From Branchiostoma floridae (lineage: Eukaryota > Chordata > Leptocardii > Amphioxiformes > Branchiostomatidae): a stretch of DNA of 64,000 bases. Location of the stretch: positions 25,027,846 to 25,091,845 of the forward strand of contig NC_049987.1 of the NCBI RefSeq assembly GCF_000003815.2, given 5' to 3'. The translations under genes were made by a program, and so were the position numbers. How positions within the stretch are numbered: the stretch's first letter is position 1; each line of letters opens with the position of its first letter. The notes beneath the pieces are model-generated. The model worked only from the letters and a program-made list of their open reading frames with translations. It was not told the origin of the DNA and made no database searches. Positions 1 through 52,800 of the stretch are shown one piece after another.

Positions 1-1375
1 AACCTGGGTGCACCAGTGCACCAAATCCCAAAAATGAATTTCGAGCCCTGAATTGCCACCTTAAACTATGCACCACTAACTACTGTCTGTCAGAGATAGT
101 CTCTTATCCATCCTAGCCTAGCTCCAGCCCCTTCCTTGTTACTTCTCTGTAGAATATTCTGGCACCTGCTCCATTTAAATGTTTGGCCTGATGTCCTTAC
201 TTAGCATGAGTACCATCAACCGTAGTGACCGCTGGCTCAGTCCTTTTGGTTGCTAGCTCCGTAGTCAGCCAGCCTTTCGCTTGCAGCAAGTTGCTAGCTC
301 TGATCTTGTATCTGCTACCATAGCTACTCGGCCATTTGATGCCACCTATTTATGGGTGCCAGACAACTTTGCAGGGAAGTTATTAGAAAAGCAGGCCGGA
401 GCTAAAACAGGACGGACAGTTTGTGTTCTATCTCTGACCATCCATGAAACAAGCAGGAACCCCAGGCAACAGTCTATCCAGTCTCCAAGTAGAGGTTAGG
501 ATCAGGGTGGTTTTGGATCTCGTGTGGGTGTTTTCATAAAAATTTCTACTTAACCAGTTTTTGAACAAAAAGAAAACTTTCAGGACTAATTCGAAAACCC
601 AATAAAAGCGCGTAAAATATCTATTCAATGCCAGCCAGAGTCTAACCTCTGCTTGGAGAGTATAGTCCACCTTTCCCCTCATGCGTACACACAGAGCTAC
701 ATGTACTGTACATCACACTGTGATACTCTATTCACCTGGACACAACTGTCCTGTGTTCCGCACACAGACGGTGGGAGAGAAAGGTGAGGTCAGTGGTGAG
801 TGCTAGCTGCTACGAATGTGACAACTTCATTGGTGAATACCAAGTTACATCTTGTCATCCTAAGGTATATACCACTCAGCAACAAAATGATACACAGAGC
901 AAAACTGTACCAAAGGCATGGTGACTGTGTGTAAGCAAACTAGCTACAGCAGGACTTCATAGAAAAATACATATAGTAGAATGGGAGAGGTGAAGTACAT
1001 TTGTAGCAACTCAATCTTCTGTTTCTTTTCCTGACTGGTATTGCCTTCATATTCAAAATGCATGTACCAGAAAGCCTCTTCCAATTGCTAACATTAATGA
1101 TTTACCCTTCCATTTGCTTCCTGTAAAAAAAACACTAAATTCTCAGGGGACAAAGGCTTAGTGTAAGCATAGATATAAACACAATACTGATGATGTACTG
1201 CTCTTCTGAAAAAAAGGTGCAAACACCCAGTTAAAAAGATAAGATGGCAACAGGGTATGAAAACTCCACTTTAATAATAATCAACAATGACATCTCTGTC
1301 ACTCTGTAGTGAAAGCAGACTCTATTCAAAATCAAACAACGAGTACTAGTATGGTACAGGAGTAAATAGTCTTAC
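1..1375. other. Intronic sequence of CEP43 with repeat fragments; no exon seen
   Basis: No further CEP43-like exon was found here on the minus strand. Bases 1-50 look like the right end of a transposon finishing in TTTCGAGCCCTG. A short MITE lies at about 481-661. The rest shows no recognisable gene. Confidence 0.5.
481..661. mobile_element. Short MITE of the CTCCAAGCAGAGGTT family
   Basis: The ends are imperfect inverted repeats: TCTCCAAGTAGAGGTTAGG on the left and TAACCTCTGCTTGGAGAG on the right. The same termini recur near 17541, 17831, 18490, 20751, 20968, 39041 and 63811, so this is a dispersed nonautonomous family. I could not define a clear target-site duplication, so the superfamily is not assigned. 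Confidence 0.6.
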
Positions 1376-2811
1376 AATATTTGTTTCTGGGTCGAAGACT
1401 GCCAGCGAATAGTCCAGGTTGAAGTGGATGAGGAACTCTCGCACCAGCGCCGCAACCATACGACCTGGGGAGGTCAAGGGGCAAAGTTCAAAAGCCAGTT
1501 AACTGACAAGAAAGACTTCACACTAGTTAAAGGTCAAAATATGACCTTGCGGCCCTGTCCAGCAGGTTCATCCTAGTTAGTACCAGCAAAACTTTATAAT
1601 ATAAGAGACGTCAAAGAGACCAGAGACACATACTTGAAGAAATATACTGTATCCTTGAATTTTTACGACATCCTATCCTATATTCTTAGCCACAAACCTT
1701 CCTTGGTGTTGAGAAACTTCTTCAGGTCTTGGTTGACCAACTGAGACTTGCTCTGCAAAGAAGTAGAATCACAAGAACTTGATACAATTTTCTACACATT
1801 TTTTTTACAGATGTACATGTACATGTAATTACTTTTAACGATATTGGTAAAAGTCATCACAAATGCAAAATATCTTCAAGCAACATTCGGCCAACTAATT
1901 ACAAAAAAAAAAAAAAAACACCAACCTCTAAGGCCCCCTGCTCTTCTAAGGCAAGAAAAACACTTGCTCTCAGCTGAGCCTGAAACCAACATAAAACAAT
2001 TTCTTACTCCAAAAAAGAGTATATACATTTGTAATTTTGTTTTTAATCAATACTGATCAATATGAAAGGTCAATGACCCCTACATGTCCTCTATTTTACC
2101 ATAAATAGTATAAGCCTGGGTTCACATTGGTGTTGCAACTCGATGAAAATCCTAATAAAGCCATACTACCAAACAATGCAAGCTCACAAATTGATCCTCG
2201 CAAAAAGTCGCAAATAATTTTCAAATATTGTTTTCTAAATCTAATTCGCATCTAGTATCGTAACACAAATGTAGCAGAACATCAAGCTATATTTTAGCAA
2301 ATTTGTATTCATCTTGATATTTCTTACAATTAACAGTCTTGTGCCAAGTCTTGAAGCAAACAAAATGTCTTCTGATTCAGGTCAAGATGCATGTTTTTAC
2401 TATGCATGTTGACGTTTGACGTCATCGAAACCAGTCACTAAAATATTTATGACAGCTGACTACAAGGTCGTAGGACGAAAATATACAAGCCGTACAAAAC
2501 ATCGACGTAACACGAAACTAGTCGTCATGGAAACCTGCAAATTAGATATACTCAAAACATGACAGGTAGCTACAAAATCAACCGGTAACGATTACAGGTG
2601 TTCTTGAGACTTCCGTCGCTAAGTGCCAGGAAAATCCCGATTTTCCGGCATTTTTAGAGAAGTAACTTGCACTTATCTAGATTCATACAATGCCTATGTT
2701 CCTTAGCTACCAGCCACGCTGTTTTCTTACCCTGATTTTGCCCAGAACTCCGTTAGTCTCCAAAGTTTGAGCCACAAGATCGCGCAGTTCGGTGTCCTCG
2801 TCAGCCGACAT
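1376..2811 (-). CDS. CEP43: CEP43 (FGFR1OP/FOP) centrosomal protein, first four coding exons (partial)
   Basis: Four exons read on the minus strand: 2811-2731 (27 codons from ATG), 1979-1926 (18 codons), 1752-1698 and 1464-1376. All have GT-AG borders and matching phases (0, 0, 1, 0). The conceptual product starts MSADEDTELRDLVAQTLE and contains ASVFLALEEQ, LVNQDLKKFLNTKEGR and FNLDYSLAVFDPET. This closely resembles the N terminus of vertebrate FOP, including its LisH dimerisation motif. FOP family proteins sit at centrioles and ciliary bases and help anchor microtubules and start ciliogenesis. The final visible exon ends at a GTAAG donor, so the remainder lies beyond the left edge or in an exon I could not find in 1-1370. 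The start codon is 182 bp from the start of the divergent plus-strand gene. The related FOPNL/CEP20 is less likely, because the LVNQDLKKFLNTK and AVFDPET matches favour FOP. Confidence 0.9.
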
Positions 2812-2993
2812 CTTGAATTTTGCTGAACTACAGAGTCCGAGTCCGAGTCTCACGGAATCTCGCGCTTTCTCATTCGGCGTTCGTTGGTCCGATCAGCCAA
2901 TCAGAGCGCGTGTTTTAGATTTAATCGTTCGAATCGACCAATGAGAGCGTAGCTGCTAAATCAGCGTCTAGTTTGAACTTGTCGATTTCCAAA
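2812..2993. promoter_or_regulatory. Divergent promoter between CEP43 and the KEN-box gene
   Basis: The two start codons are 182 bp apart in opposite orientation. The interval holds CCAAT boxes at 2897-2901 and 2938-2942, each followed closely by GAGAGCG or AGAGCGCG, and TTTGAA at 2972-2977. CCAAT (NF-Y) boxes followed by a CHR-type TTTGAA are a known arrangement in G2/M gene promoters bound by the MuvB/DREAM complex. No TATA box is evident. The motifs are visible; the regulatory reading is inference. Confidence 0.6.
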
Positions 2994-5900
2994 ATGGCTG
3001 CTGTGGAAGAAGCGTTGATCAAGAAGCTGGAAGATCTGGGAGAAAAGCGAGCCAGGGGGAAGAAGCTGCACGAATGGACGAAGAAGGAGGCGGCGGAGGT
3101 GTTGTGCCACCTGTTTTCGCTGTACGATTCGAGCTGGGCGTGGGACGTGCGATCCCAGAGCGACGGGAAGAACGGGAAGACGATCGCGAGGTGAGTTGTT
3201 TGTTAGCGTGGGGTCACACAAGACAAATTTGCATGTGCTTTTATTGTTGTTATGGGGATTTTACTTTCATGTTATGATCATTTTTTTTCTATTTCAGACA
3301 TATCTTTATCTACTAGTACATATAATTCAGCTTGCATCACGTGAGACATCTCACTTCTCAAGTGAGAAGTGAGATGTTTCTGTACTGATCCTCTTCCTCT
3401 TCCTGTTGAAGCGACCACAATCATCGTGTTGATAATCATGATTTTATGGTTTATCTGTTACCCCATTTGTTTTTGTCAGACCAAAAACTGATCCCAAGGA
3501 AAACTTGAGCAGTTGATGATCTCTTTAATACAAATTTGATCCAGCTATATGTAGTTTTCAAATTATTTGCAAGCCTTACTTTACTAGTATTTTTATGCCT
3601 TGATGAATTAACATGTGATGCTAATTTATTGCGTTTTTATTTATTTTTGATGATGAAGAATATGTTTACCCTAGGAGTAGGAGGTTTAAAATTTAGAGAA
3701 CCTCATTCAAGTCATTGGTTTACCTGTATGAAAAAAAACAACAACATGATTTTGTAACAACACAGTCCCTGATTGATAAATAAATAAATATATATATTTT
3801 TTCTGACAGTTAACTAGATGCAAATCTTAAGAGCTTATTAGTATTACAGCCTCAGTCTTATAGTAATTTTACCTCCCCACCAAACCCAGGTACCTGCGTC
3901 TAATGGACATCGGTTACCTCCTGAAGCAGCCCTCCGACCTCGACCCCGCCAAGCACAAGCTGGGGAGGATCATGGGAGCCGTGCTGGAGAAGCTGGAATC
4001 TCGTCTGGGGGCCTCGCTGTACCAGAAACAGCGCCAGGCCGTGAAGCATCGCAGGCTCCAGGAGCTACAGCAGCGGAAACAGCACAACAGCGCGAGCAGC
4101 GAGTGTGAGATGGACAAGGAGAACTCACCTGCCAGACAGGTGTGTAGCCTGTAGTGTGTGTGTGTGTGTGTGAGTTAGTTTGTTTGTGTGTGTGAAGCAT
4201 CGCAGGCTACAGGAGCTACAGCAGCGCAGGAGACACAACAGCGCTGGCAGCGAGTGTGAGACAGACAAGGAGAACTCACCTGCCAGACAGGTGTGTAGCA
4301 CAGGTGTTAATGTGTGTGTGTGTGTTAGTGTATTTGTGTTTATGTGTGAAGCATCGGCGCCTACAGGAGCTACAGCAGCCTAGGAGGCACAACAGCGCTG
4401 GTAGTGAGTGTGAGACAGACAAGGAGAACTCACCTGCCAGACAGGTGTGTAGGACAGGTGTTAATGTGTGTGTGTGTGTGTGTGTGCGTACATGTGAGTG
4501 GCAGAAAAGGTTTACAGAAAAGTCTAAGCTGTCTACCTGGGCTGGCTATCACATCAGGCTACTCATGATCAGCTACCCATTCATATATGGGGCAAGCCTA
4601 TTGTTACTATGCGAGTAGCTTGACACAAGGCTGCGTTCTGCATTTTTGCAAAAATGTTGCCTTTCTAGTTTGATTTATCTGTCATATTTTTTTCTCCCCA
4701 CAGAACAAATCTGTCACAACCAGCAGCACTCCAACCAAAGGAAGCAAGTCCCTCTCTAAAGAACCAGCCAAACCGACTCATTCTGGATCACAGTCAAAAC
4801 CACCAGCTGTTAAAAGAGCTGCAGCAACACCGGTGAACACAAAACAGCTGAAACTTGTGGGGGTGAGTTAGTATTGCTATCACTGAAAGGGCTCAAAAAC
4901 ACTTGCTGCTTATCTTTTTATGTACGAGTGTTTCAGTGTGGTATCTTTTACTTTTTAGAAAGTGCATTAACACTCAAACCCCAACTCAATTTTTTCCGCC
5001 CCTCATTGGTTTGTAAAACTAGTCATTTTAAGCTTATGAAAACACATTGTCATCAATTTTATGTACTGTACCAGTGCTCGAAATACACTTTTCAGTCAAC
5101 TTGCACCTGTGCAAGTTAAGCCAAAGGTAACTTGCACCAAAAGAAACTTACTTGCACAACCCAAAATAGTGAACTGTTAACTTTAAACCCTTATCTCCTC
5201 TTCTGAAAATTTGCAAATGTATGTGACTAGTAGTAAATGGGGATACATACCGGTAAAGACCACATGTTTGGATATTTGTTTTTCCGTAGCGTATTTTATT
5301 TTTGGTTTGAAATTGTACAAACTGTTTCATAAAAACTGTGAATTTAGGCTCAATTAAAGACAATTCAATGTCTACAACTTGATAAGATCCATAGATTTCT
5401 TCTGGACTCATCGAGTGACATCCATCACAGTAACTATTCTTAAGCATCTCCAGAATGAAGTGGTAGAACAACTCAATACAATACATATAACTGGAAAAAC
5501 CAGTTGAACATATTAAAGTCACTAATTAGTATGCAAATGTACTCATATGCAAATCAAGGTAAGACAGCACCATAGGAATCATTAGCATTGTAGAGATGGA
5601 TTTGTTTAAAAAAATAGTTTACCTGGATGTCTAACCAAATTTATAAATAACAAATTTAGGCTTTTTTTTAGTCAGTGTTATTTTCTTTTACCTTTCAAAG
5701 ACAGACAATGTTCTCGGTGTGTGTAAGCTTTTTCTAATGTCAGGTATTAGAGGACAAAAGTAACTTGCACTGGTGCAAGTTTGGTCTAAACTTACTTGCA
5801 CCACACCAATTTTACTTGCACAAACTTGCATATGCATGTGGTATTTCGAGCCCTGTGTACTGAAGTTCAGGTTGTTGGGACGGATCGAGTGAAATTCCAA

Positions 5901-8900
5901 ACAAGCAAATTTCCGTCAGACTGACGGGTCCTGGAGACAGCTCTGCTATCAATGCTGAAAATTTTCTCCCAATTTGCCTACGCAGGGGACTCCCCTCCCA
6001 AGGGGTTCAGCATTTAGAGGGAAGGAAATTCCCAGAAGCCCCCCTGATGGCCAAACAGATGATTTGACACCACCCACAGAGACCCAGGGCCTCACTCCCA
6101 ACGTCACCAGGGAGAAGAAACCCTCCTGTACCAAGCCTTCAGGAATCATCATGAGGAAAGTTCAGGAGGCCAAAGTCACACCCGAGGGGGAGACATGGAA
6201 CGACGCAAACGACATATTAAAGAAGGACAGACGAGACAGCGAGACGCCGACGGGAAGGAGGAAAACTCGAACACCCCGCAGCGCTCGGCGGGGGACCTAC
6301 ACCCTGAGCTCTGCTCCGCTTGGCGTAGAACCAGAGGAAACACCTGTAAGCATCCCCCAGGGGACAGAGATCCCGAGGTCTCCGTTTGTCCACTCTGCAG
6401 CTAACAACTCACACGCAGACCCACAGAGGCCAACGGTATCTCGTGAGGATGTCAGCAAAGAGAGAGCCTACAGTCACGGCGGTTCCAGTAACAACATGTA
6501 TACAAGCGCTGGAACGGCTAGAACTGACATGGAAATGACTCACAACCTGACCAACAAGGTGCACAAAGATGTGGACACGAGCTGCGCGGACACAGATGGT
6601 CCACAGAAGAGGAGGAGTCCAGAGGATGAGAAGTGGAGGAGGCTGGTGGACCAGAGTCCCCCTGTACAGGTACAGGGCAGCAGGAGTCAGAGAGACTCTG
6701 TTGTGGTACGGCTGGAGGAAGAGCTGGATATGGCTGCCGACTGTAAAGAGGACAACAGGTGAGGCGACAGATGCAATGTTTATACAGTGATGATGAAACC
6801 AAAAATAATTTGATCAGGTTGGTAGATGACGGTACATGTAAGGTATATTCTTTAATCACAACCACACGTTGATACAGGACCTAAGTCAGCCAACATATCG
6901 GTGACCACCTGTCACCTTCTTCAGGCTCAGGGGAATAATGACTGGTACTTCTTTGTACTTTGCACTGCTAAGTGTTGCAAATAAGTAGATTTGAAAGTGT
7001 TTTTACCAGGTAGCTCTGAAAGCTGTACATAATCATTGATATTTCAGACAAATGAAGTAACAGGTATCAGTCTGAATTGTCTTACAACGTTTCCTATTGG
7101 ACATCTGAAATTGTCTTCATTTATAGTTAGAGTATAAAAGACCTGTTTCTTTCAGATCACTTCAGTGTCACTGACGAAGGATAGTGGATTCTATCCAAAA
7201 CGTCTGACCGTTTCAAACCATATCCAGTTGCTTGAGTAACTACTTTTTGGTGTAATGATATGATATTGTTTATTACCAGGTATCCCCCTGGAGTTCCTGG
7301 GTTTCCATCCGCTGATGCATCCCTACATCCCCCCAAAAGGCCTGAAGACTCAGGTCAGTTCTACTATGTAAAGCCATTAATGGTACATGCATGTTGTGAA
7401 AAATGTAAAATAACAATTACATGTACTTTTCTTTCACATTAACATGTAATCGTAATGTAAATTGTATCAGCTAAGCAAGGTTACTGCTTTCATCAGTTCA
7501 AGTTCAATTTTACCCACCAGAAAACATCCACCCAGTACTTTGGCCTCTTTTCTGTAAGCAACTTTAGCCTGGAGTCAAGCATTGCTAGCTTTGGTCCACT
7601 CCCATCGGTCAATACTTGGGAGAGTAACAACTGTTTGGAGCTGACCAAAGCTAACAAGGCTGGACTCCAGTCTAAAGCAGAAGTATAGTTCTGCTCTGTG
7701 TTTTAGGTAGATGAATTGCACAGTTTTTATGATTTGATTTTTCAGAGAGAACCATTGCCTGGGGACCAAAGGTGCAGCGTACTGGGCCAACTGCAGCTGA
7801 AGACAAGGAGAACTCACAGACACAGACACAGACAAATGTGCCCAAGAAAAGGAACTTACAGGTATGGTAACAAATGTTTAACTTCTCCAAGAAGTTAATG
7901 TTTTAGGTGTCATTTGTTAGTGAGTGTGCGTGTCTGTCTGTCTGCCGGTCTGTCTGTCTGTCTGTCTGTGGAAGCATAACTTGAGAAGCTGTGGGGATGG
8001 ATCCTTTTCATTCTTGGTAGGTGGGTAGAAGTCGGGAACACAAAGGTCATGTTTCTAAGCAGCTTTCCATGGTACTGAAGTGGAACTTCTGGATTTCATA
8101 TCTTGTGTGCTGGACATGCTATGGTTGTGACTTTGAGTGGAAGGTAGCTCTTGATTAAGCTACAAACTACATTTTACAGTTTTGACCAACTGTACAGTGT
8201 CACCCCAAATGGTAGAGGTCGCTGGCGAGCTGCCATCAAGCCCCCTCATCTACGTGCAAGCACGTCTAACCCCCACAGGATGGGGAACAACAGACGTTAA
8301 ACCAGAGAGTGCGTGTGCGAGTGTGAGTGCCAGATCTACCTGAATGTTTGTGCAACTGTAGAAACAAAGGTGTCTTCTGCTTTTTTGTTGCCCCAGGAGG
8401 AACTGATCTCCTTCAGTGGGTTCAGGTCCCTGGCTGAGAGGAACAGGTGTACACCCATGAGGAAAACCAAACCAGACATACAGGTGCAGCCACCAACGGT
8501 AGGTCATTTTGCTGTCATACATTTTAAACAACTATCTTTATTCCTTTATTTGGGTTTATGACAGAGTGAAGGGGAGGGCAGAATATATGAACAGTTTGGT
8601 TGTTTTTTGATTCAGACCCTTGTAGGCAAAGAAAGTTTCCTTGCACTTTCAGTAGCAGGGTATATTTTTACAGGGAGGGATTGCCAGCCCTTCCCCTTTA
8701 ACATGCTAGAGGCACCTCCTCGACCATGACACCCTCTGAAAGACAGATACAGCCCCAACCGAGATGCCCTACCCAGGATTGAACCTCCCAGCTACCAACT
8801 TATTGGAACCAATTTCACAACTGTGAGGCTGCTACCGGCCAGTTGAGCTACAGGAACATCCACATAGCTGTTTATAGGTTGACAGAATAACCTGTTAAAA

Positions 8901-11900
8901 TCACTCCTAACAAAGTATCTTCCATGTCTCTTTACTCCACCAGTCCGTCAGCAAGCACAAGTCCAACCTCACGACGACCTCTGACCTGTCCTCTGACCTG
9001 CCCACCATGCTGTCGAAGATGACCATCGCGGCCACACCCCGGTCGAAACAGCTCAACGCGGTCGGCCTTCCGAGCTTCGCTGCCGGCACCCCCGCGGGAA
9101 AGCAGCAGCTGTCGTTTGGAACGCCAAGTCTGAGGGCGACCCCCATGTCTAAAGCTGCCCCCATGTCTAAAGCGACTCCACTGTCTAAAGCCGCACCACT
9201 AGCGAGAGCGACGCCCCTGGCTAAGGCCACACCCCTGGCGAGAGCGACGCCCCTGGCTAAGGCCACGCCCCTGGGGCTGTCCAGGCAATGGGGCCCTTCC
9301 GCTGAGAACACCATCACGAACTTTGACTCAGCATTCAGGAGTAAGGGTTGTGAGAATAAACCTACCAACAGGTATGGAAATTAATTTTTGTTGTTTGTGT
9401 TTGGAAATTTTTTTGGCTTTTGTGGTCTTGGTGTGTTTGTTCCTGTTTGTATAAGTTATGTGTTCTGTGTTGTGACAAGGATTTAAAGAAACAGGAGGCA
9501 TGAAAATAACTTGTTTTTTTATTTTTTTATTTAATTAACATTACCTATATTTCTAACTTTTGAACACTAATCGTTTTACTAGTAACTTTTTTGTTTGTAA
9601 TTGAAGAGTTGTTCTGTGTTAATTTTATAACAGGGAGAAGGAAAAACCTACATGTACAAGGGGCCCTGTCATCAAGCAGTCGTTGTTTCCATCTTCGCAG
9701 GTGAGGCACAATGTGTGAACCGGAAGTTTTAAGAAGGAAATATGAGCGCTTAAGCTCAACTTTTAATGGGATATCAAACTGCAGCAGAACCTTTCTTATT
9801 TTGCATATTATTCAAACTTATTTTGAGAAAGAAATATTATCAATCTCGAAGTTCAGCTGCAGTATTATATTGAAAAGGAAATACATTGTACAAGCACAAC
9901 TGTAATAGAAAAGCACAGACGGATCCAGTGGAAAATTGCAGTAATTCCAGATAGTGACTCAATACACAGACAGCTGTGAGTACTGGAGTAAAAGTCGTCC
10001 CAGGTCATGACTGGCAACAATCAAGTTGGTTTGTCACTGGATATCAAATTGAATGTTATTTGTACATAACCAAGTTTTTATTTCAAGATTGACGTTTCAA
10101 TGACCATCTGACTGTCACCTTCTCAGGGCAATTCTTACTGGTTATGTTACACACTACATGTACAAGTGCTTCTTTGGTGTCACTCATGACTGCTTAACAG
10201 AGGCAGTCCCAATTCCCAAATGTCAAGTGTTTACATAAAACATAGATAAGCTAATCTCTGTCGGAGGCAGTAGTCCTACCTACCACTTCCCTATGTCTCA
10301 GAACCTCACTGGGTTTACAGTGACCGGTGCATGAGGTGTTTGGTGCAGGTTAGGAACACATCTGTCATCCAGTGGAAACTACCAATATACACTCACTTAT
10401 CCACTACACTCATAACATCCCCTCCCCAACCAAACTGCTTTTCGGCCTCAGGGCTCAAAACTCACTTTTGGGTGCACCAGAAAATTTGTGGTGCAAAAAT
10501 CAGTATATAATAAAGTAGAATGTCAGCAAAACACATAATCACACGTCTTACTGCCTCTCTGCAGAGCTTGAACCTGAAATTCTAACATTTGGAGCAGTAA
10601 TGTGAAAAAGATGTCTTTATTTGACACTTCTGACACTTGAATGACAAGAAATTGTTGCTAGTATGCTGTAAACTAGAGTAAAATTTTACTATCTTCACAT
10701 ACATAACAGTTCAGTTCAGTTCGTCCTCATATGAGGTGCCATTAACGATGTCCGACCAGGCATCTCTATCTAGCATGGCGACTAGCAAGTTGTAGTCCTT
10801 TAAACCAACCTCCTCCTCCAGAACTTTCTTAAGTGTTAGGTTCGGTCGTCCCCTTTTTCTCTAACATAACCCTACATACAAATGCCTAGGTGCACCCACT
10901 GTCAAAACTTAGGCTCACAGCTCAAATTTTGAGCTATATGCATTCAGTACTTCCTTATCTTAGAACCTATCGGTTTACAAATTGTTGAAGGATGATATTA
11001 ATGACAAGAGGTCAGGAGAGGTGAGATAGAGGAAGAGGAAGGTGTGAGGGTATGAGGGGCAGGAATGTCTGGCGAATTCCCGGGATGGTTGGCACAACTC
11101 TGGTGACCTGTCTTCGCTGACCTCCTTGTTCAAACAAACTTGAGTTGTCTGGCGGGTGCCATCTGGAGTCATGGTCACAAATCACTTCTTAACCCTTGTC
11201 TTGCTAAGCCCATATACATGTACATTTGTACATGGGTTGCACATGCATTGTGTCAAGTCAAGTCAAGGTTTAGTCAAAGCACAACAATTGTCGCAGGTAC
11301 AATGTAGGGCAAAGTAAAATATACATTATGTGAGGCAACTAGCTGTGAATTAAAACAGAACATGTAGGTTCTAGGCTATACAATATTGAGAGAAAACACA
11401 ATGTACAATATGGAACAAAACGTTATAGCAGACTACTTTGAACTTGCATGTGTCTGTATGTGAGTCCCATATTTTTATAGGTTTGGGGTATTTGTTAACT
11501 AAATGCAGCATATCATAGCATATAGCACCAAATGGGTAAGTTTATCTGCAGCACAGAAAAGGTCAAGTTTAACTAATCCAATAAAGCAATCATTAATTTT
11601 AAAAAATTCTAGAAGGACAACGTCCGACAAGGGTTAACTAAGTCATCTGTCATTCTGTGCATACCTTACTTTCTAGGCTTCACAAACATTCACAAACCTC
11701 ACTGTTTAAGATAGCTGCTACTCTGGTTGCACGACTATGAAGGTGTTGTCTGTTTGAAGTGGGCCTTAGTCATCTGTGCCTGTTGTATGTTGTCAGGCTC
11801 TGTCTAAACTCACAACCTAGCAGCTATCTTAAACAGTGAGGTTTGTGAACTTTTGTAAAGCCTAGAAAGTTTTTGGTTATGCCTTTCCATGTGAATTGAA

Positions 11901-13975
11901 AGCCAGGGTGTTGATTGCCAAATTTTGTACCATTGCACCTAAACGATTGTGATTTTCCTCAAAAGTTTGCTTTTTATTAAGATATCAATTTCATGTTGAA
12001 TGCCTTTCGTTGATACGCGGCATAATGTTTGTTGAGAAAATATGAGCCAGTCTGTCATATCGTTTTATTTACCTGAACTCGAGCCAAAAGAAATAATTAG
12101 CAGGTATTTCAGCCTGTGTCATGTGCTTCCTGCCTCCCCATAGATATCTGCCCCACATGCCCAAATATGGGCAGGAATCCTGGGCATGCCAAATAAGGTT
12201 GTGAGCCAGGTTCAAGGTTTGGTATGAGACATGTCAATTGACAAAGGCGAGGTGGGGAGGATTTAGGGGACCAGGAATTTTTCTAATCTCTGTTCTTTTT
12301 TGAGGAAGTGGTAATTATGGAGTTACCAGAAATTTCTGTCAAACACAAACTTTTATTTTTTGCCAACTCGAACAAGTTTGCTGTGGTTTGATTTTGGGAG
12401 CTCAGAGAAAATGGAGTGTTCTCCTTGGTTTTAGGCTTGTGGACTACTAGCACTATAATTGCACCAGTGGTTTTAAGTTTGTGTTAAAAACATCATCTGA
12501 GAGAGAGAGAGAGCATTAAACGACTATGAAAATGTAAAGAATCACTGTTGTGTAAACGGATACAAACAAGTAATGTAAAAATTTGACCATTTCCCATTGA
12601 AATTACTGTAAAAACAATGTCATGAGTTATATGGATTAAGCATTTGACAGCATAATTTATTTTATGTCAAAGTCAATGTGGACTTGGACTTAGATCCAGA
12701 TCCAAGCATAACACAGCCCTTACATACTCCTTATGTCATCCTGCTCTAGAAGATGCAGAGTGACACTTCTCACCACCTCTGCCCCTTAAGCACACCTTGT
12801 GGGCCTGTAGGGAAGGTAATTAGTGGGGAGTGTGTCTGAGATTGTTGTAGAACAAAGTCCAGCTGTCTAAAACCTCCGGGCAGGGCAAACCCAGTGATGC
12901 CACCCCAAAGTTGGTGTTGCAGCTAACAAGCAAAATTGAAGGAAACTGCAGTTTAAAAGCTATCTTTCACCTTGAGCAGGGCAGTCCCAGGGATGTAATC
13001 CCAAAGTTACATTTCAAGCAAAACTGAAGGGGAAATTGAAGTTAAATAAAAAAGGTGCCAGGGGCCAACACCACAATCAGACAGACACATGCACCCAAAT
13101 ACATAACAAAGCATTGTTGTCAAAGGGAGTTAATGTTACGTGTATCTGGGATTGTTGTAGAATGAACCACAGCTGTCTAGCAAATCCAGGCACGGCACAC
13201 CCAGTGATGGCATCCCAAAGTTGGTTTTCAAGCAAAACTGAAGGAATTGCGCTGTTGAAAGATGGTGTATTACGCCAAACGGTGGTTATACTGGGCCGGC
13301 TATATAGATACAGATACAGAGAATAAGATTGCCCCCTGCAGTTCTTAAGAAAGCAGCAAGGGGGCCCAAACCTAACCACTTACTCTCTGCCTCAAGAGCC
13401 ATCTATCACTTTAAAATTACGGCTGTAGCTTGTCAAGAACACATTAATCAAAAACAGGAGTTCTTGTGCAGTACCCCAGAAAGCCGCTAGATGGCCCAGG
13501 ATTTGATAATACTTGCCTTTTCCCTGCCAACATACTAAATATCATGACGATCCATGCATAGTTTATTGAGTTATGCTGTTCACAATAAAACATGCAGACA
13601 CACACATAAAAACATAGCAAAACATTGTTCAATTTGTTGGCAACGTGATTGACAGTACGTGTGTTTGTGATTGTTGCAGAACGAAGCCCAGCTGTTCACC
13701 ATAAGACACACATGCATGCATGCACACACACACACACACACACGAAAGTGACGAATACATAAGGAAACATTGTTCAATTTGTTGGTAAAGGTACTTAACA
13801 GTACATGTGTCTGCGATTGTTGCAGAACGAAGCCCAGTCGTCCGGCGCCGCGGGACAGGACAGATCCACCGCTGCCGTCACTTCTCTCTCACGGGACCTG
13901 AAGTTCTGCCACCTCAAGAAACGGGTCGAACTCCAGAGAAGACACGAGGCAATCTTGAAGAAGTTTGACCTGTGA
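2994..13975 (+). CDS. KEN-box, Ser/Thr-Pro-rich protein of unrecognised family (10 exons, complete)
   Basis: Exons: 2994-3190, 3890-4139, 4704-4862, 5986-6758, 7280-7353, 7746-7861, 8397-8498, 8944-9371, 9634-9700 and 13826-13975 (TGA). All borders are GT-AG and all phases match, giving 2316 nt and 771 residues. The ATG at 2994 (aaaATGG) has a strong Kozak context. Residues 1-125 form a charged, probably helical domain. A KEN box (MDKENSP) lies at 142-144 and another (EDKENSQ) at 505-507. Many S/T-P sites occur, including ETPTGRRKTRTPRSARR in exon 4 and TP-L-A/S-K/R repeats at about 623-667. The C terminus is a basic helix (LKFCHLKKRVELQRRHEAIL). KEN boxes are recognised by APC/C-Cdh1 and S/T-P-K/R sites by CDKs, so a mitotic or replication-linked role is inferred. 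I do not recognise an orthologue. Intron 2 and intron 9 carry tandem copies of exon edges. Confidence 0.85.
4198..4290 (+). other. Candidate cassette exon 2b: duplicated KEN-box exon end
   Basis: A 93-bp copy of the 3' part of exon 2 (4047-4139), displaced by 151 bp. It is preceded by an AG after a long TG-rich tract and followed by the same CAG/GTGTG donor as exon 2. It is open for exactly 31 codons in the phase required by its neighbours, and encodes HRRLQELQQRRRHNSAG followed by a second DKENSP. If spliced in, it would add 31 residues and one KEN box. The weak acceptor (TG repeats instead of a C/T tract) makes use uncertain. Confidence 0.5.
4352..4444 (+). other. Candidate cassette exon 2c: third copy of the KEN-box exon end
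   Basis: A further 93-bp copy, 154 bp downstream of exon 2b, again open for 31 codons in phase 0 and bounded by an AG and a CAG/GTGTG donor. Against copy 2b most differences are synonymous (for example CGCAGG versus CGGCGC, both Arg-Arg, and GGCAGC versus GGTAGT, both Gly-Ser). One change is Arg to Pro. The KEN core is kept. Whether it is spliced cannot be told from the DNA. Confidence 0.5.
5083..5855. mobile_element. Nonautonomous DNA transposon with GCTCGAAATAC termini (hAT-like, tentative)
   Basis: The left end reads CAGTGCTCGAAATAC and the right end GTATTTCGAGCCCTG, which are inverted complements. Subterminal repeats of the CTTGCAC/GTGCAAG type occur near both ends. Similar right or left ends are seen at 1-50 and about 10447. 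The flanks share TGTACTG, offset by three bases on the left, so the target duplication is not certain. The CAGGG-type end suggests hAT. A 124-codon minus-strand ORF inside (5148-5522) has no recognisable domain. Confidence 0.6.
7161..7255 (+). repeat. Dispersed retroelement-like tail, copy 1
   Basis: A block running from CACTGACGAAGGATAG to AGTAACTACTTTTTGG, with CCATATCCAGTTGCTTGAG inside. Closely related blocks occur at about 38605-38670 and 49708-49762. A recurring fixed tail after a variable upstream part suggests the 3' end of a 5'-truncating retroelement, family not assigned. Confidence 0.5.
7567..7676. mobile_element. Hairpin MITE, about 110 bp
   Basis: Left arm AGCCTGGAGTCAAGCATTGC continues into TAGCTTTGGTC. 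The right arm GACCAAAGCTAACAAGG continues into CTGGACTCCAGTCT, the imperfect reverse complement. Nearly the whole element is palindromic. It lies in intron 5 of the KEN-box gene. Confidence 0.65.
7915..8160. repeat. TCTG microsatellite with dispersed repeat
   Basis: A (TCTG)n tract at about 7930-7968 is followed by a block containing GGATGGATCCTTTTCATTC and TTGGTAGGTGGGTAG. Similar GGATGGATT / GTGGGTAGG blocks occur near 46117-46155, 47030-47060 and 47510-47545. Confidence 0.5.
8690..8856 (-). mobile_element. tRNA-derived SINE
   Basis: On the minus strand the sequence starts CCTGTAGCTCAACTGG, which contains an A-box-like TAGCTCAACTGG (8839-8850). About 54 bp later comes a B-box-like GGTTCAATCC (8776-8785). 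This is the internal RNA polymerase III promoter layout of tRNA-derived SINEs. The far end is approximate. It lies in intron 7 of the KEN-box gene. Confidence 0.6.
10711..10861 (-). pseudogene. LINE reverse-transcriptase C-terminal fragment
   Basis: The minus strand encodes RKRGRPNLTLKKVLEEE...LDRDAWSDIV and ends at a TGA inside a short CTGAA repeat tail. The GRP...TL...V..DL..L...DR..W pattern is typical of the C terminus of non-LTR retrotransposon ORF2, and the short repeat tail fits a 3' end. Only about 50 codons survive. Confidence 0.7.
11668..11870. mobile_element. Long inverted-repeat (foldback) element
   Basis: Arms of about 50 bp run from ACTTTCTAGGCTTCACAAAC to TTAAGATAGCTGCTA on the left and return as TAGCAGCTATCTTAAACAGT to GCCTAGAAAGT on the right. 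The loop is about 100 bp. A TSD was not resolved. Confidence 0.7.
12825..13700 (+). repeat. Tandem decayed copies of the exon 10 acceptor region
   Basis: The motif GATTGTTGCAGAACGAAGCC at the start of exon 10 (13816-13835) is preceded by copies near 12834 (GATTGTTGTAGAACAAAGTCC), 13149 (GATTGTTGTAGAATGAACC) and 13669 (GATTGTTGCAGAACGAAGCC, identical). Flanking text such as CATTGTTCAATTTGTTGG and CCCAGTGATG also recurs, so the whole intron-exon boundary was duplicated. Confidence 0.75.
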
Positions 13976-18619: not shown

Positions 18620-19150
18620 CAGTTACTCTTGAGTTCTGATGCCTGACTCCGAAGTTTAGGCCGGTTCTGGTTGGCGAACTTCTACTTGGAGAGTACTACT
18701 ACATTTTGCACTAAAGCCTTAGTATTGCCACTTCTTTGTCTTTGTTATGTAACTTGGCGCCTGACGCCAAAGTTGAGCCCGGACAGGTTTGCGAACTTGT
18801 TGATGCCCACCTGCTAACTGCAAACTTCTTCTTGGAGACTACAATACTACTTCTATATTTTGTACTAAAGCCCAGGCTAGTATTGCCACTGGATCTCCCT
18901 TATGTAACTTGACGCCTGACGCCGAAGTTGAGGCCGGACTGGCTTGCGAACGTCTACTAGGAGAGTACATTTTGTGCTACTACTAAAGCCCCGACATTGC
19001 GACTTTGTCTTTCTTATGTGACCTGGCGCCTGACGCCGAAGTTGAGGCCGGACTGGCTTGCGAACGTCTACTAGGAGAGTACATTTTGTGCTACTACTAA
19101 AGCCCCGACATTGCGACTTTGTCTTTCTTATGTGACCTGACGCCTGACGC
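18620..19150 (-). repeat. Tandem partial copies of the calponin-like terminal exon end
   Basis: The 3' end of the alternative terminal exon plus its downstream sequence is repeated about every 118-145 bp. Shared text includes GCCTGACGCCGAAGTTGAGG, CCGGACTGG(C/T)TTGCGAAC and TACTAGGAGAG. Copies lie near 18640, 18755, 18905, 19025 and 19145, the last being inside the functional exon. The copy near 18755 extends furthest into the exon (to a degraded GATGCCCACCTGC). Each keeps the reverse complement of the NFGVRR coding end. Confidence 0.8.
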
Positions 19151-19310
19151 CGAAGTTGAGGCCGGACTGGTTTGCGAACTTGTTTGACCCCATCTGCAGG
19201 CTGACTGCCTTCCGCCCCTCCATCATCTGCTCCTCCGTGAACAGGCGGATGTTCTCCTCCGACGGCTTCGGGCCGAACATGGGGCCGTAGTAGTCGGGCT
19301 TGGTTTGTGC
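19128..19310 (-). CDS. Calponin-like gene, alternative terminal exon B
   Basis: Read on the minus strand from an AG acceptor at 19311-19312, this exon encodes 60 residues plus TAA. It starts AQTKPDYYGPMFGPKPSEE and ends GSNKFANQSGLNFGVRRQVT. It starts with the same AQTKP in the same phase as terminal exon A at 21401, so the two should be mutually exclusive. The calponin-type repeat differs from exon A (FANQSGLNFGVRR versus [13 protein letters not shown]), which could change actin binding. Joined to exons 1-4 it gives 188 residues. Partial 5' copies lie at about 19440-19491 and 19605-19653. Confidence 0.8.
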   Translation of the reverse strand, partial: AQTKPDYYGPMFGPKPSEENIRLFTEEQMMEGRKAVSLQMGSNKFANQSGLNFGVRRQVT

Positions 19311-19430
19311 CTATGTACATTCAAACAATAGGTAAATGTAACTACATGTAGCCCCATAGTCTTTACGGTTCTCCACTGTGTCTAACGCAAAGTTTGGGGA
19401 GCTGGAGGTGGAGCCTATCCCTCCCCTTCC

Positions 19431-19660
19431 ACTGTCAGAAGGCTTTGGCCCAAACATGGGGCCGTAGTAGCAGTATGGCTTGGTCTGTGCCTACATTCAG
19501 AAAATAGGTAAAGGTAGCTAGCCCCATAGCCTTTACACACGGTAGGGGCTGTAGGTTGCTATACACTGTGAGGGCATGGTGCCTAGCCCTTCCCTCTCCT
19601 CCCACCGGACAGTATTCGGTTCATAGGACCGTGGTAGTCTGGCTTGGTTTGCGCCTAGGC
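19431..19660 (-). pseudogene. Two partial copies of the terminal exon 5' edge
   Basis: On the minus strand about 19491-19440 encodes AQTKPYCYYGPMFGPKPSDS and about 19653-19605 encodes AQTKPDYHGPM before the similarity decays. Both repeat the start of terminal exon B after a similar upstream block (CCTACATTC.GA). Neither continues into a calponin repeat, so they are probably duplication debris. Confidence 0.65.
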
Positions 19661-20750
19661 CTACATTCCGAGATACATTCAAAGACAATATAACAGTGCA
19701 GTAGTATAGTACTAGAGTAGAAGACGTTTAATTGCAGACCAAAAGCACAGCGTATTTCGTGCAATTATCCGGGTAGTGCAAATGAATAACGCGAAGTTAT
19801 CCAGCTGGACCGCACTGGTTCGGGATTTTAAGATTCCGTGCAATTATTAAACAGAAGTGTGTGGTAATCCGTTGTGCAATTAACTGGCCTCTATAGTATC
19901 TCAGCAGATGCAACTACATCTGGACTGAAAATTTTGATGTAAGCTTACCTGGTAAGAATTACCTGAGAAAAGAGACAGATCTATGGAGAATGGGGCATAA
20001 TAGATTTATTTGAGTTCTGTCATGTTATGTTTCAGCCCTGCATTACTAGTATCTTCTACTTGTCCCAAGTAGAATGAGTGCGTACTTTAATCCAGGAGCA
20101 AGACATCATAAAAAGAATTACACAGTCAGTACACGGGTAAGATTGATTGATTTATTAGAGTCTAGTGATGAACAACTTTTAATCTCAGTTAACTAATCCA
20201 CTCTTTGTTATCTCATGACAGTCATATGCATTGCAAAATGAAAGCAAGTGTGATAAAGCATAATGGTAATACATGGAAGCTAAGGCATAGCGTTACTTTT
20301 TAGAATTCTAAAAACAGACATGAGTTTGTTCAAAAGCATCCATGAAGAACATTTAACATATTCCACATTGTAAAACGACTGTTATGAGGACAAATGCTTC
20401 GAACAAGTCATTCAGTAGCAAAGATTGCTGTACAATGAGCGTGTTATCAAATTAGCATTAGAAAAAGTTATCCAAAAAATCAATGTAGAAGATGTTTAGG
20501 ATTTTTACCAACAAATGCATCTTTTATTTAAACATCATGTTCACAAGTTAACAGTGTTCTAAAATAAAACATGTTGCCTAGTAAACGTCATAATAATAAC
20601 CTAGTTTCAATAAGTACTGGAATGGCCAATCATATTTTACTTGCAAATATAACGTTACTATCAAAAAAAAATTAATGAACAACTTGATAACTTTTCCTAT
20701 ACGAGTCAGGCAGCAAGTAGAGTTAGTTCCCTTTGTCTTCCACGTGAGTT

Positions 20751-20968
20751 CGCACTCTCCAAGCAGACGTTAGGCTCCGACTTACTCTGGACGTCATTTT
20801 AGGCGTTGTTGCCTTTTTTTTACTATTTGTCAGGTTTTCTTTTTATCTGTGCTTTCTTTTTGTCTGCCAGCCTAGCACAGACAAAAAGAAACTTCATAAA
20901 AAAGGGAGGACAACATAAACGCATAAAAGACATCTAAAACAAGCTAGAGGCTAACTTCTGCTTGGAGA
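20751..20968. mobile_element. MITE of the CTCCAAGCAGAGGTT family
   Basis: The left end CTCTCCAAGCAGACGTTAGG and right end GGCTAACTTCTGCTTGGAGA are inverted repeats. The interior contains TTTTAGGCGTTGT, shared with the copy at 17831, and a T-rich/A-rich inverted pair (TTTGTCTG / CAGACAAA). It lies between the two alternative terminal exons of the calponin-like gene. Confidence 0.65.
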
Positions 20969-20989
20969 ATAGACCGAGTTAGCCTTAGG

Positions 20990-21190
20990 GCATGGTCACA
21001 TAGGTCGTGCGAACGTCGTACGATCGCTAACTTGGAGGACAAAAATGTAGGTCTCCTGCAAAGTTCAACTATCTTGGTACACAAAATGCTGATTTGGATC
21101 CATGTCGGTGGTTGGTTCTGTCACGGCCTGCTTGAAAATCCTATGGCATCAAAATCGTACGACGATCGCACGACCTATGTGACCGCGCCC
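20990..21190. repeat. Inverted-repeat element with GTCGTACGATCG ends
   Basis: Left arm GGCATGGTCACATAGGTCG continues to CGTCGTACGATCG. The right arm is the complement, CGTACGACGATCGCACGACC to GTGACCGCGCCC. A structure of about 200 bp, consistent with another foldback element. Confidence 0.6.
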
Positions 21191-21221
21191 TTAGTTAGCC
21201 TGTGTGCCATTCCCGGTTAGT

Positions 21222-28256
<7,035 letters not shown>

Positions 28257-49859: not shown

Positions 49860-52800
49860 ATGCCTTATAAAGGTAAAGCTGCAACCCAGAGCGGACAGGG
49901 AAATGACACTATTCAACCAAACAGCGATACATACATGTGCCATGCCCTTGCGATGAAGACACGTTCGGAAGATACCAAGACTGTTCAACCAAACAGCGAT
50001 ACATACATGTGCCATGCCCTTGCGAATAAGACACGTTCGGAGGATACCAAGACCAAGGCGCCCATTCAGAAAAAAATAGTGGCTTTAACTAGCAAAGAAG
50101 ATTTCCCAGTTCCGTTAGCAGGACGTGCTAGACCCGAGAACAGTGCTGATGCTCCAGCCCTTTCCGGGTGCGGCGGTACCATGCGTGAGTCTCCACATCC
50201 TCCAAACGAAGCCCCCGTGCACATAAACCCCCTGTCTAACGTCACGTGCGAGCCCATGTACAACATGTGGTCTTCTGACCCCGTGCGTACATGCGGCTCC
50301 TCCAACCCGGTGTACGGGCATGACCTGAAGGGCCAGGGCACGGATCCTGATACTGACTTGCGACCAGCTAGCATGGAGCCATATGCCGTCAGATATCAGG
50401 AGGAAGATGCTGATGATGATAAAGACCATCGACCAGCTAACATGGAGCCATATGCCGTCAGATATCAGGAGGAAGATGATGATGATGATAAAGACGATCG
50501 GCCAGCTAGTATGCAGTCATATGCCGTTAGCACTTCCAGGAATGATGCTGGCACTTCCGGAAATGATGGCACATCAGTTCCACGAAAGGATGACAGGAGC
50601 ATGCGCGGCACTCGCAAACCCAGGCACGCACAGGGTGTTCCCCACGGTCCTCGGGAAGCAGCTGGCGGTAAGATGATATATCTACATTTACAAACTTCAG
50701 TGGGAGTCAAGTAAGTTTATTTTACTGGTGAATCTGAGCGTGTATCCGCTCAGTGCGTGTACTTCCTGTGTATTCTACCAGAGGATGACAGCCGTCAAGG
50801 GGGTGAAGTATCTATGTCAACGTCAGTGAACTTGAACATGACACCATATGGGAGGTGTGGCTTATATAGATGAGCCTGATAGGTTTTCGTTTCCCATGCG
50901 ACAAAAACAACTCGAGTTTGAAGAATGGCTCTCTGGTGGTGCGATGTACAGTAACAGGTGAAGGGTGTCAAATTGCCAGTGTTCTTAATGAAGTCATACT
51001 ACTAAATAGTTAATGGATATATATTTTTTCATGTTGTACTTTGATTTCGAAAAGTCTTGAAGTGACTGTTCTCCTTAATTTATACTGTCGACGCCATTTT
51101 AATTTTCCTCCAGGCACCACACCCATGCAGCAGACTGATTGGCAGGCACGTGCGGACGCCGCTGCGAGTATACCCAACCCTATGTACGCCTCCAGAGCAG
51201 GTAAATCAACCTGTGTCAGATTCTTCGTACGATTGCCGTACGATAACAAACAGATTACGTTTCAGAGTCACGAAGGTGCCATACAAGCGCTGACTGCCTT
51301 GTTACGAAAGGACTGTCTTAGATGCTTGTCAGTGGTTGGTTCTGTCATAGACTGCTTGATAACTCTTCAACTTCAAACTTCGGCGGATGTGACGTCGTGA
51401 CACCTCGCTATGACACTAACTCGACTGCAATACCGACGAATCTGATTTTTTTAAAGCACTACAACAAACGGTCTAAAAACTTCAAAGAGCACATCATGCA
51501 ATAACCATTTTTTTTATTTATTTTGGAAGACTGCTTTTTTTCAAGATCAATATTGTTTAGTTGTTTTAAAGAGGCAGTCATAATTCAAATATCGACAAGA
51601 TCAGTTAGCCATTTTTATGAGAAGAGAAATATGGGTTCTGTCACTAATTCAATAATCTTCTACTAACGATTATAATGTGATTTATTGTACTCTGTGTTAT
51701 TTTCGATTTGCCTATTGCGGATGTAAATTAAGCTGTATACGTAATTTTCAGTACGAAACTTACCCAACTTTCCGACTGTCCATCTCCGGTCTTTGTCAGT
51801 CCTTGTTGGACAGTCAGAACTGTTGTGTTTAATTTTCGCGTTGAAAATTAAATTAAAGTTGAAAGTTTTGAAAAAAATCCTTGTTTTAAATCCTCTTGTT
51901 TTTTAACAGACCGCACGTATTCGGGTCGAGCAAGCGGCTGCCGTGCACTCTGTAGCTTTATATGCTCCCACCTTAGCTACTTGGCCACGGGCATTGCCGT
52001 ACTGCTAAGCCTGGTCGCTGTGGGACTTGCCCTTATGGCGTTCATCAAGAATGAGGTAAATGCTGTTGTATCACAAAAGCCTATTGGAAAGCAATTTTTG
52101 ACACTGCCTCTGTTCTATTTATTGAGTTCATCAAGTCAGAACTTTTCGCTATTTCATATTGTGTTTTTTAACGTTTGGTATTCTGACGTGCATATATACC
52201 TTTATACGTTCGTAGGAGATATCTGAGCTGGCCACCACTGTTGACGCCGTGAAGCGCGACCAAGACGACATACGCCAACTGCCCACCACTGTTGACGCCT
52301 TGACACGCGATCAAGACGACATGCGCCAACTGTCCACCACTGTTGACGCCTTGACACGCGATCAAGACGACATGCGCCAACTGTCCACCACTGTTGACGC
52401 CTTGACACGCGATCAAGACGACATGCGCCAACTGTCCACCACTGTTGACGCCTTGACACGCGACCTGGACAAGGAGCGAAGCCGAACCGGCCCCATCTTG
52501 GAGCAGCGCCTTGACGAGACGAGTAAGACGCCAGGTGAGTTGGGTTTCAGTTGTTTTGTGTGCTATCTGGGATGGTGTGCTGAGCAACATCATTAGTATA
52601 AAAATGTGGCAATAAAAATTATTGCCTTTGTGACGGCTTTAGGTTTGTATGTGTTTGTTCGTTTGTTGTTGTTGGTATGCTTTAGTATTCGTGCTATATC
52701 CCTTGACCTAGCTGTATACAAAGATTGTTTTTACACCATAAATGCTATTAATATATCATTTCCTAATAACGTGAATGCCTATCATTTACCACTGTGGTAT

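Follow-up and report, generated by a model that had tools for sequence, protein, structure and literature searches.

Minisatellite-like tandem duplications of exon-intron boundaries, called "mirages," have been described in several lancelet genes (PMC3087553, PMC3902484). In the globin family, the BflGb9 mirage repeats the 3′ exon 2 boundary in a unit of 157 bp, and the units of BflGb6 are 150–160 bp long and share 81–100% identity (PMC3087553). In the passages of the globin report drawn on here, mirage turnover is attributed to unequal or intra-strand crossing-over, with two haplotypes carrying 6 and 3 units, and homogenization is described inside the clusters, the cluster boundaries being excluded (PMC3087553). 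According to the same passages, Adh3 data and globin RT-PCR suggest that mirages do not interfere with splicing; the splice signals in the copies could act as cryptic sites, and it was proposed that a copy may be recruited as an exon (PMC3087553). Related repeats have been reported in the amphioxus PGBD5 gene (60- and 108-bp units, including one triplication) and troponin C gene (PMC3902484). A literature search with the phrase "mirage minisatellite" returned no match.

The array described here lies at 4041–4480 on the plus strand of a 64,000-nt stretch of DNA (positions 25027846–25091845 of C9), hereafter called the window. Like BflGb9 and BflGb6, it is a tandem duplication of an exon-intron boundary, and its units of 151 and 154 bp are close to the 157 and 150–160 bp of the globin mirages (PMC3087553). 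BflGb6, which is homogenized inside its cluster, duplicates the acceptor side (PMC3087553), unlike our donor-side array. The array further differs from the globin mirages in having three copies at a donor, each with a KEN motif and open for 31 codons, and a spacer formed by a TG microsatellite. The imperfect triplication of PGBD5 (3 × 108 bp) abuts a 5′ splice site; it was compared with mirages by its authors, who hold that it leaves splicing unchanged, but its units are shorter and its repeats enclose a predicted exon 5 (PMC3902484). The Adh3 mirage minisatellites (Canestro 2002, as described in citing papers) likewise span a boundary and are unstable in length, but their units are given as 10–72 bp (quoted in PMC3087553). 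In-phase, head-to-tail copying within a gene also characterizes tandem exon duplications and mutually exclusive exons (PMC9013439); unlike them, our array copies only the 3′ part of an exon, without an acceptor or pyrimidine tract. The mirage features found in the array are a spanned boundary, a unit of 151/154 bp within the quoted range of 10–160 bp, a reiterated splice signal, and inner copies that are the most alike. The array is thus most likely an ordinary member of this known lancelet repeat class.

The KEN-Motif Gene

The exon models of the gene that carries the array were predicted from reading frames and splice signals. The gene is on the plus strand from 2994 to 13975, and spliced translation of a ten-exon model gives a product of 771 amino acids. 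Exon 1 (2994–3190), which is also matched by tblastn in the same genome, begins with an ATG at 2994 and ends at a GTGAGT donor; exon 2 (3890–4139) ends in phase 0 at the donor CAG/GTGTGT, and exon 3 (4704–4862) has an acceptor rich in pyrimidines. The KEN box is a degron recognized by APC/C-Cdh1. The predicted product has KEN motifs at residues 142 and 505, the latter encoded by exon 6 (7746–7861) in the sequence EDKENSQ, a context similar to that of the KEN in the repeat. The motif reads DKENSP in all three copies of the array, as had been noted originally, and DKENSQ at residue 505, and its role as a degron here is that of a candidate. Exon 8 (9140–9274, plus strand) has in-exon repeats of 18/36 bp that encode a TP-rich repeat (ATPLSKAAPLARATPLAKATPL). 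A Pfam search with the 771-residue product gave nothing above the cut-off (best, DUF963, E = 0.2), and a PDB sequence search with it found no relative (best E = 1.7).

A FOP/CEP43-like gene lies at 1377–2811 on the minus strand, head to head with the KEN-motif gene, and a match to FOP_dimer (E = 1.2e-15) is given by the first four of its predicted exons. The predicted start codons of the two genes are about 180 bp apart in this orientation, which suggests a common promoter.

Anatomy of the Array

Tandem Repeats Finder (TRF) assigned a period of 154, 2.9 copies, and a score of 654 to 4041–4480, and the repeat search gave spacings of 151 and 154. The array spans the donor that the gene model predicts at 4139/4140. 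Pairwise comparison placed copy 2a, the 3′ end of exon 2, at 4047–4139 (HRRLQELQQRKQHNSASSECEMDKENSPARQ), copy 2b at 4198–4290 (HRRLQELQQRRRHNSAGSECETDKENSPARQ), and copy 2c at 4352–4444 (HRRLQELQQPRRHNSAGSECETDKENSPARQ), all on the plus strand, and 2b and 2c are each followed by a donor-like GTGTGT. The two TG-rich spacers, which would have to serve as introns, measure 58 nt (4140–4197) and 61 nt (4291–4351). The original prediction, that three 93-base segments stand at spacings of 151 and 154, that each is open for 31 codons in one frame, and that each ends in the same CAG/GTGTG donor, was correct on all these points. The segments are thus real, but the duplicated unit is larger than the 3′ 93 bp of exon 2. 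Flank comparison showed that it opens at GTGAAG (4041) inside exon 2, takes in the final 99 bases of that exon together with the donor, and reaches into the TG tract. Since homology starts at GTGAAG, the join between the TG tract and GTGAAG marks where the unit was closed.

The open frame around copy 2c (4196–4618) is longer than 31 codons. If the predicted exon 2 is read on into the 58-nt spacer, VCSL is followed by a stop at 4152–4154; because of this stop in the fifth codon, a retained, coding spacer was rejected. The frame is preserved when 2b, 2c, or both are added, and exons 1–3 then comprise 233, 233, or 264 codons with 2, 2, or 3 KEN motifs. The proposed rise from one KEN to two or three therefore holds for exons 1–3, but for the protein in full the number would rise from 2 to 3 or 4, because the gene model already has the KEN of exon 6.

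Genome-wide searches covered 513,431,437 bases in 431 contigs. With 4040–4450 as a DNA query, at least 96 matches were found (a lower bound, as 40 of 132 candidates were scored), and the window locus was the only full-length one among them. The other 95 were confined to positions 94–161 or 252–310 of the query, that is, to the TG-rich spacers and at most a few exon bases. A second haplotype or retrocopy of the array was also considered, and no full-length match besides the window locus was present among the DNA matches listed. When the first 202 of the 771 residues were used as a protein query (tblastn), all five matches in the genome were at the KEN-motif gene itself. The spacers at 4140–4197 and 4291–4351 have at least 95 further matches in the genome, at 82–93% identity, so TG tracts are evidently common in this genome and are a likely substrate for slippage.

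Divergence Between the Copies

Over the 93 bases, 2a and 2b differ at 11 sites, 2a and 2c at 16, and 2b and 2c at 8, and the inner copies 2b and 2c are therefore the closest pair among what are only three copies. The differences had been described as mostly synonymous. This applies to 2b/2c (five of six changed codons) but, counted by codon, not to 2a/2b (3/7) or 2a/2c (5/10). The dN/dS values obtained with the Nei-Gojobori method were 0.16 for 2a/2b, 0.13 for 2a/2c, and 0.07 for 2b/2c. We simulated the same number of random changes, with each site counted separately, conditioned on an open frame and with kappa 1–4, and the chance of so few nonsynonymous changes was 0.007–0.046 (2a/2b), 0.0005–0.007 (2a/2c), and 0.0004–0.006 (2b/2c). 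When neighboring changes were counted as one event (kappa 2 and 4), these chances became 0.25–0.29, 0.002–0.003, and 0.0004–0.001, respectively; the three pairwise comparisons are not independent. Codon position alone gave a weaker signal, with third-position changes in 10 of the 17 variable columns (P = 0.027) and at six of the eight 2b/2c differences (P = 0.020). Among the six frames, the synonymous excess of 2b/2c peaks in the coding frame, with 5 synonymous and 1 nonsynonymous codons against 4 and 3 in the next-best frame. This excess is the best evidence for reading the copies as exons. The open frames are weak evidence of use, because in 45–70% of the simulations a neutral copy that had received equally many changes was still open.

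The divergence along the unit is a mosaic pattern. All 17 variable columns fall within the first 66 of the 93 bases (chance 0.0015, for a cut that was picked post hoc), and the three copies do not differ at all in the last 27 bases, which encode DKENSPARQ. Since this identity includes the synonymous sites, the retention of DKENSP is not evidence at the protein level. In the intron directly after the donor, 2b and 2c differ at 1 of the first 21 bases, next to a synonymous divergence of 0.39. A single clock, neutral or coding, does not produce 0.39 at synonymous sites beside 1/21 in the intron; exchange between copies could.

Boundary Copies in a Calponin-Type Gene of the Same Window

Further boundary-type duplications were found in a calponin-type gene at 18745–24460 on the minus strand, which matches the Calponin repeat (E = 1.3e-11); the CH-domain match of another fragment was below the cut-off. 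Its donor-side copies are at 24326–24360, 24145–24179, and 23958–23992, and acceptor-side copies of its last exon are at 19278–19313, 19458–19493, and 19622–19657. A fourth acceptor-side match (21369–21404, 75%) is perhaps a separate exon. The C-terminal coding end has copies downstream of the stop at 19067–19014, 18953–18900, and 18798–18745, and the copy at 18745–18798 might itself be an alternative last exon.

These copies served as controls for the synonymous excess described above. In T2, a truncated donor-side copy, 3 of 66 sites deviate from the exon, all of them synonymously (3 and 0 codons); the third donor-side copy, which was left out of the scoring, carries a G-to-R change. The three C-terminal copies differ from the exon by 1/2, 2/2, and 5/1 synonymous/nonsynonymous codons and among themselves by 3/0, 4/3, and 3/3. 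Thus, in a set of controls that is small and mixed, even boundary copies that are not read in frame can show synonymous differences, and the 2b/2c excess accordingly loses part of its weight as evidence for exon use.

Splice Signals of the Inner Copies

The reference set for the splice signals comprised 12 introns and their acceptors in the window, nine from the KEN-motif gene and three from the FOP/CEP43-like gene, all of them predicted. The layout had been called splice-competent, and for the donors, which read CAG/GTGTGT in all three copies, this is so; the putative acceptors and branch-point candidates look poor. An AG does stand at the same place before each copy, as had been noted, but it is the end of a copied AAG codon and not an inherited acceptor, and its constant position results from the copying of this lysine codon along with exon 2. 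Position −3 is A before 2b and 2c and C in all 12 reference acceptors. The would-be introns of 58 and 61 nt compare with 173–4125 nt in the 12 reference introns. With an acceptor weight matrix, 2b and 2c scored 0.0 and −1.0, and the references scored −5.0 to 15.9 when left out one at a time, although a matrix built from 12 introns discriminates weakly. Two of the 12 references scored below both candidates, and 27% and 34% of the 755 other AGs in 3191–13826 scored at least as high as the two candidates. The pyrimidine fraction from −20 to −5 is 0.62 at both, inside the reference range of 0.56–0.88, because T makes up half of each TG tract.

No yUnAy branch-point motif was found 12–60 nt from the end of the 58-nt spacer. 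The only one in the 61-nt spacer is TTAAT, which lies 19 nt from the donor and is separated from the acceptor by an AG. Among the nine reference introns of the KEN-motif gene, the motif was absent from this range in three, and one more has it only with intervening AGs. The acceptor and branch-point tests lean against splicing of 2b and 2c, whose sites appear poor, not impossible. A UG-rich tract upstream of an acceptor is known from CFTR exon 9, where, in the part of the source cited, TDP-43 binding goes with missplicing (PMC12171016). A literature search on minimal introns in amphioxus found nothing.

Origin of the Array and Alternative Explanations

We consider it likely that the triplicate represents a mirage at the boundary between exon 2 and intron 2 that was later subject to exchange between copies, with 2b and 2c lying in the intron. 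This reading is based on an array that begins within the exon and includes the donor, on spacings near those of the globin mirages, on the mosaic divergence, and on the calponin-type gene, which lies in the same window and has copies of its coding 3′ end as well as of a donor-side and an acceptor-side boundary. The original prediction had named recent neutral duplicates as its own alternative, and that alternative fits better; mirage is its published name. One observation against the mirage reading is the synonymous excess of 2b/2c, which a simple neutral-intron model does not predict. Because the 2b/2c differences are mostly synonymous, such a model needs exchange with the functional copy, and this exchange is a proposed step. 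Most likely, 2b and 2c are intronic by-products of exchange with a functional exon end.

The array could have originated by microhomology, as the TG tract of the intron and exon 2 at 4041 have the short word GTG in common. Slippage or unequal exchange would have joined the TG tract to GTGAAG, and the end of exon 2, together with the donor and the TG tract, would thereby have been copied head to tail. Gene conversion or unequal crossing-over may afterwards have moved sequence between the copies; this would leave the donor-proximal part identical, and the changes brought into the intronic copies would mainly be ones that the exon tolerates. Splicing of the mRNA would most likely lead from the first donor of exon 2 (4139) to exon 3 (4704), leaving out 2b and 2c.

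It is possible but unlikely that 2b and/or 2c are nascent cassette exons, spliced in at some stage and adding 31 or 62 residues with one or two KEN motifs; the extra N-terminal KEN could strengthen recognition by APC/C-Cdh1. Such a role would suit copies that are frame-symmetric and open, with intact donors, KEN in 3/3, and a 2b/2c synonymous excess that is maximal in the coding frame of six. Precedents can also be cited: human cells use SPF45 to splice an intron of 56 nt whose pyrimidine tract is truncated (PMC8363638), mirage copies were proposed to be able to become exons (PMC3087553), and some unannotated tandem exon duplicates are backed by RNA-seq (PMC9013439). However, the acceptor would be a copied lysine codon with an A at −3, as in 0 of 12 references, the introns of 58 and 61 nt offer poor branch-point candidates, and published mirages are reported or argued, in the passages cited, to leave the mRNA unaltered (PMC3087553, PMC3902484). 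The calponin-gene boundary copies, which are hard to read in frame, are also mainly synonymous in some cases. We give a slightly lower, distinctly small probability to the fuller proposal that 2b and 2c are alternatively spliced through UG-rich introns of 58 and 61 nt, so that the KEN degrons of a possible cell-cycle protein would depend in number on how many repeat copies are present, which would vary between individuals. A UG-binding repressor such as TDP-43, or an SPF45-like route for short introns, would possibly be behind such splicing.

Alternatively, the two extra GTGTGT sites could be decoy donors that compete for U1, so that exon 2 sometimes extends to 4290 or 4444 and the resulting truncated or decayed mRNA lowers the output of the gene. 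Three identical donors do follow one acceptor, and use of the second or third leads to a stop at codon 154 either way; still, an extended exon of 401 or 555 nt, against 250, and the reported or argued silence of published mirages in the passages cited (PMC3087553, PMC3902484) make this very improbable. An assembly artefact, in which chained or collapsed haplotypes gave a false copy number, recalls reports that the copy number of mirages disagrees between haplotypes or assemblies and that one mirage was aberrantly assembled (PMC3087553, PMC3902484). Here, the copies differ at 8–16 of 93 sites, the TG spacers differ, and one full-length locus occurs in the genome among the matches listed, and we regard this explanation as exceedingly improbable.

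On the mirage reading, the array is a further, donor-side case of a type of repeat known, in the papers considered here, from a small number of lancelet genes, and it illustrates that open frames, intact donors, and even a low dN/dS do not alone prove the use of duplicated exon ends. Splicing of the copies, if it occurred, would directly bear out the published idea that new exons and introns are created by mirages, and would make the degron number dependent on an unstable repeat.

Background Frequency of Tandem Arrays

In 20 arbitrary 10-kb stretches of the genome (200,000 bases including 1,917 N), nine arrays of period 80–300 were found in seven stretches, i.e., about 45 per Mb. Extrapolation from this small sample gives about 20,000 such arrays genome-wide, many of which should cross exon edges. 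An array that crosses an exon boundary is therefore expected from the background. Elsewhere in the window, on the plus strand at 52228–52463, a 51-bp tandem repeat (4.6 copies, 96% matches) can be read as a 17-residue repeat (LSTTVDALTRDQDDMRQ) within an ORF at 52216–52596.
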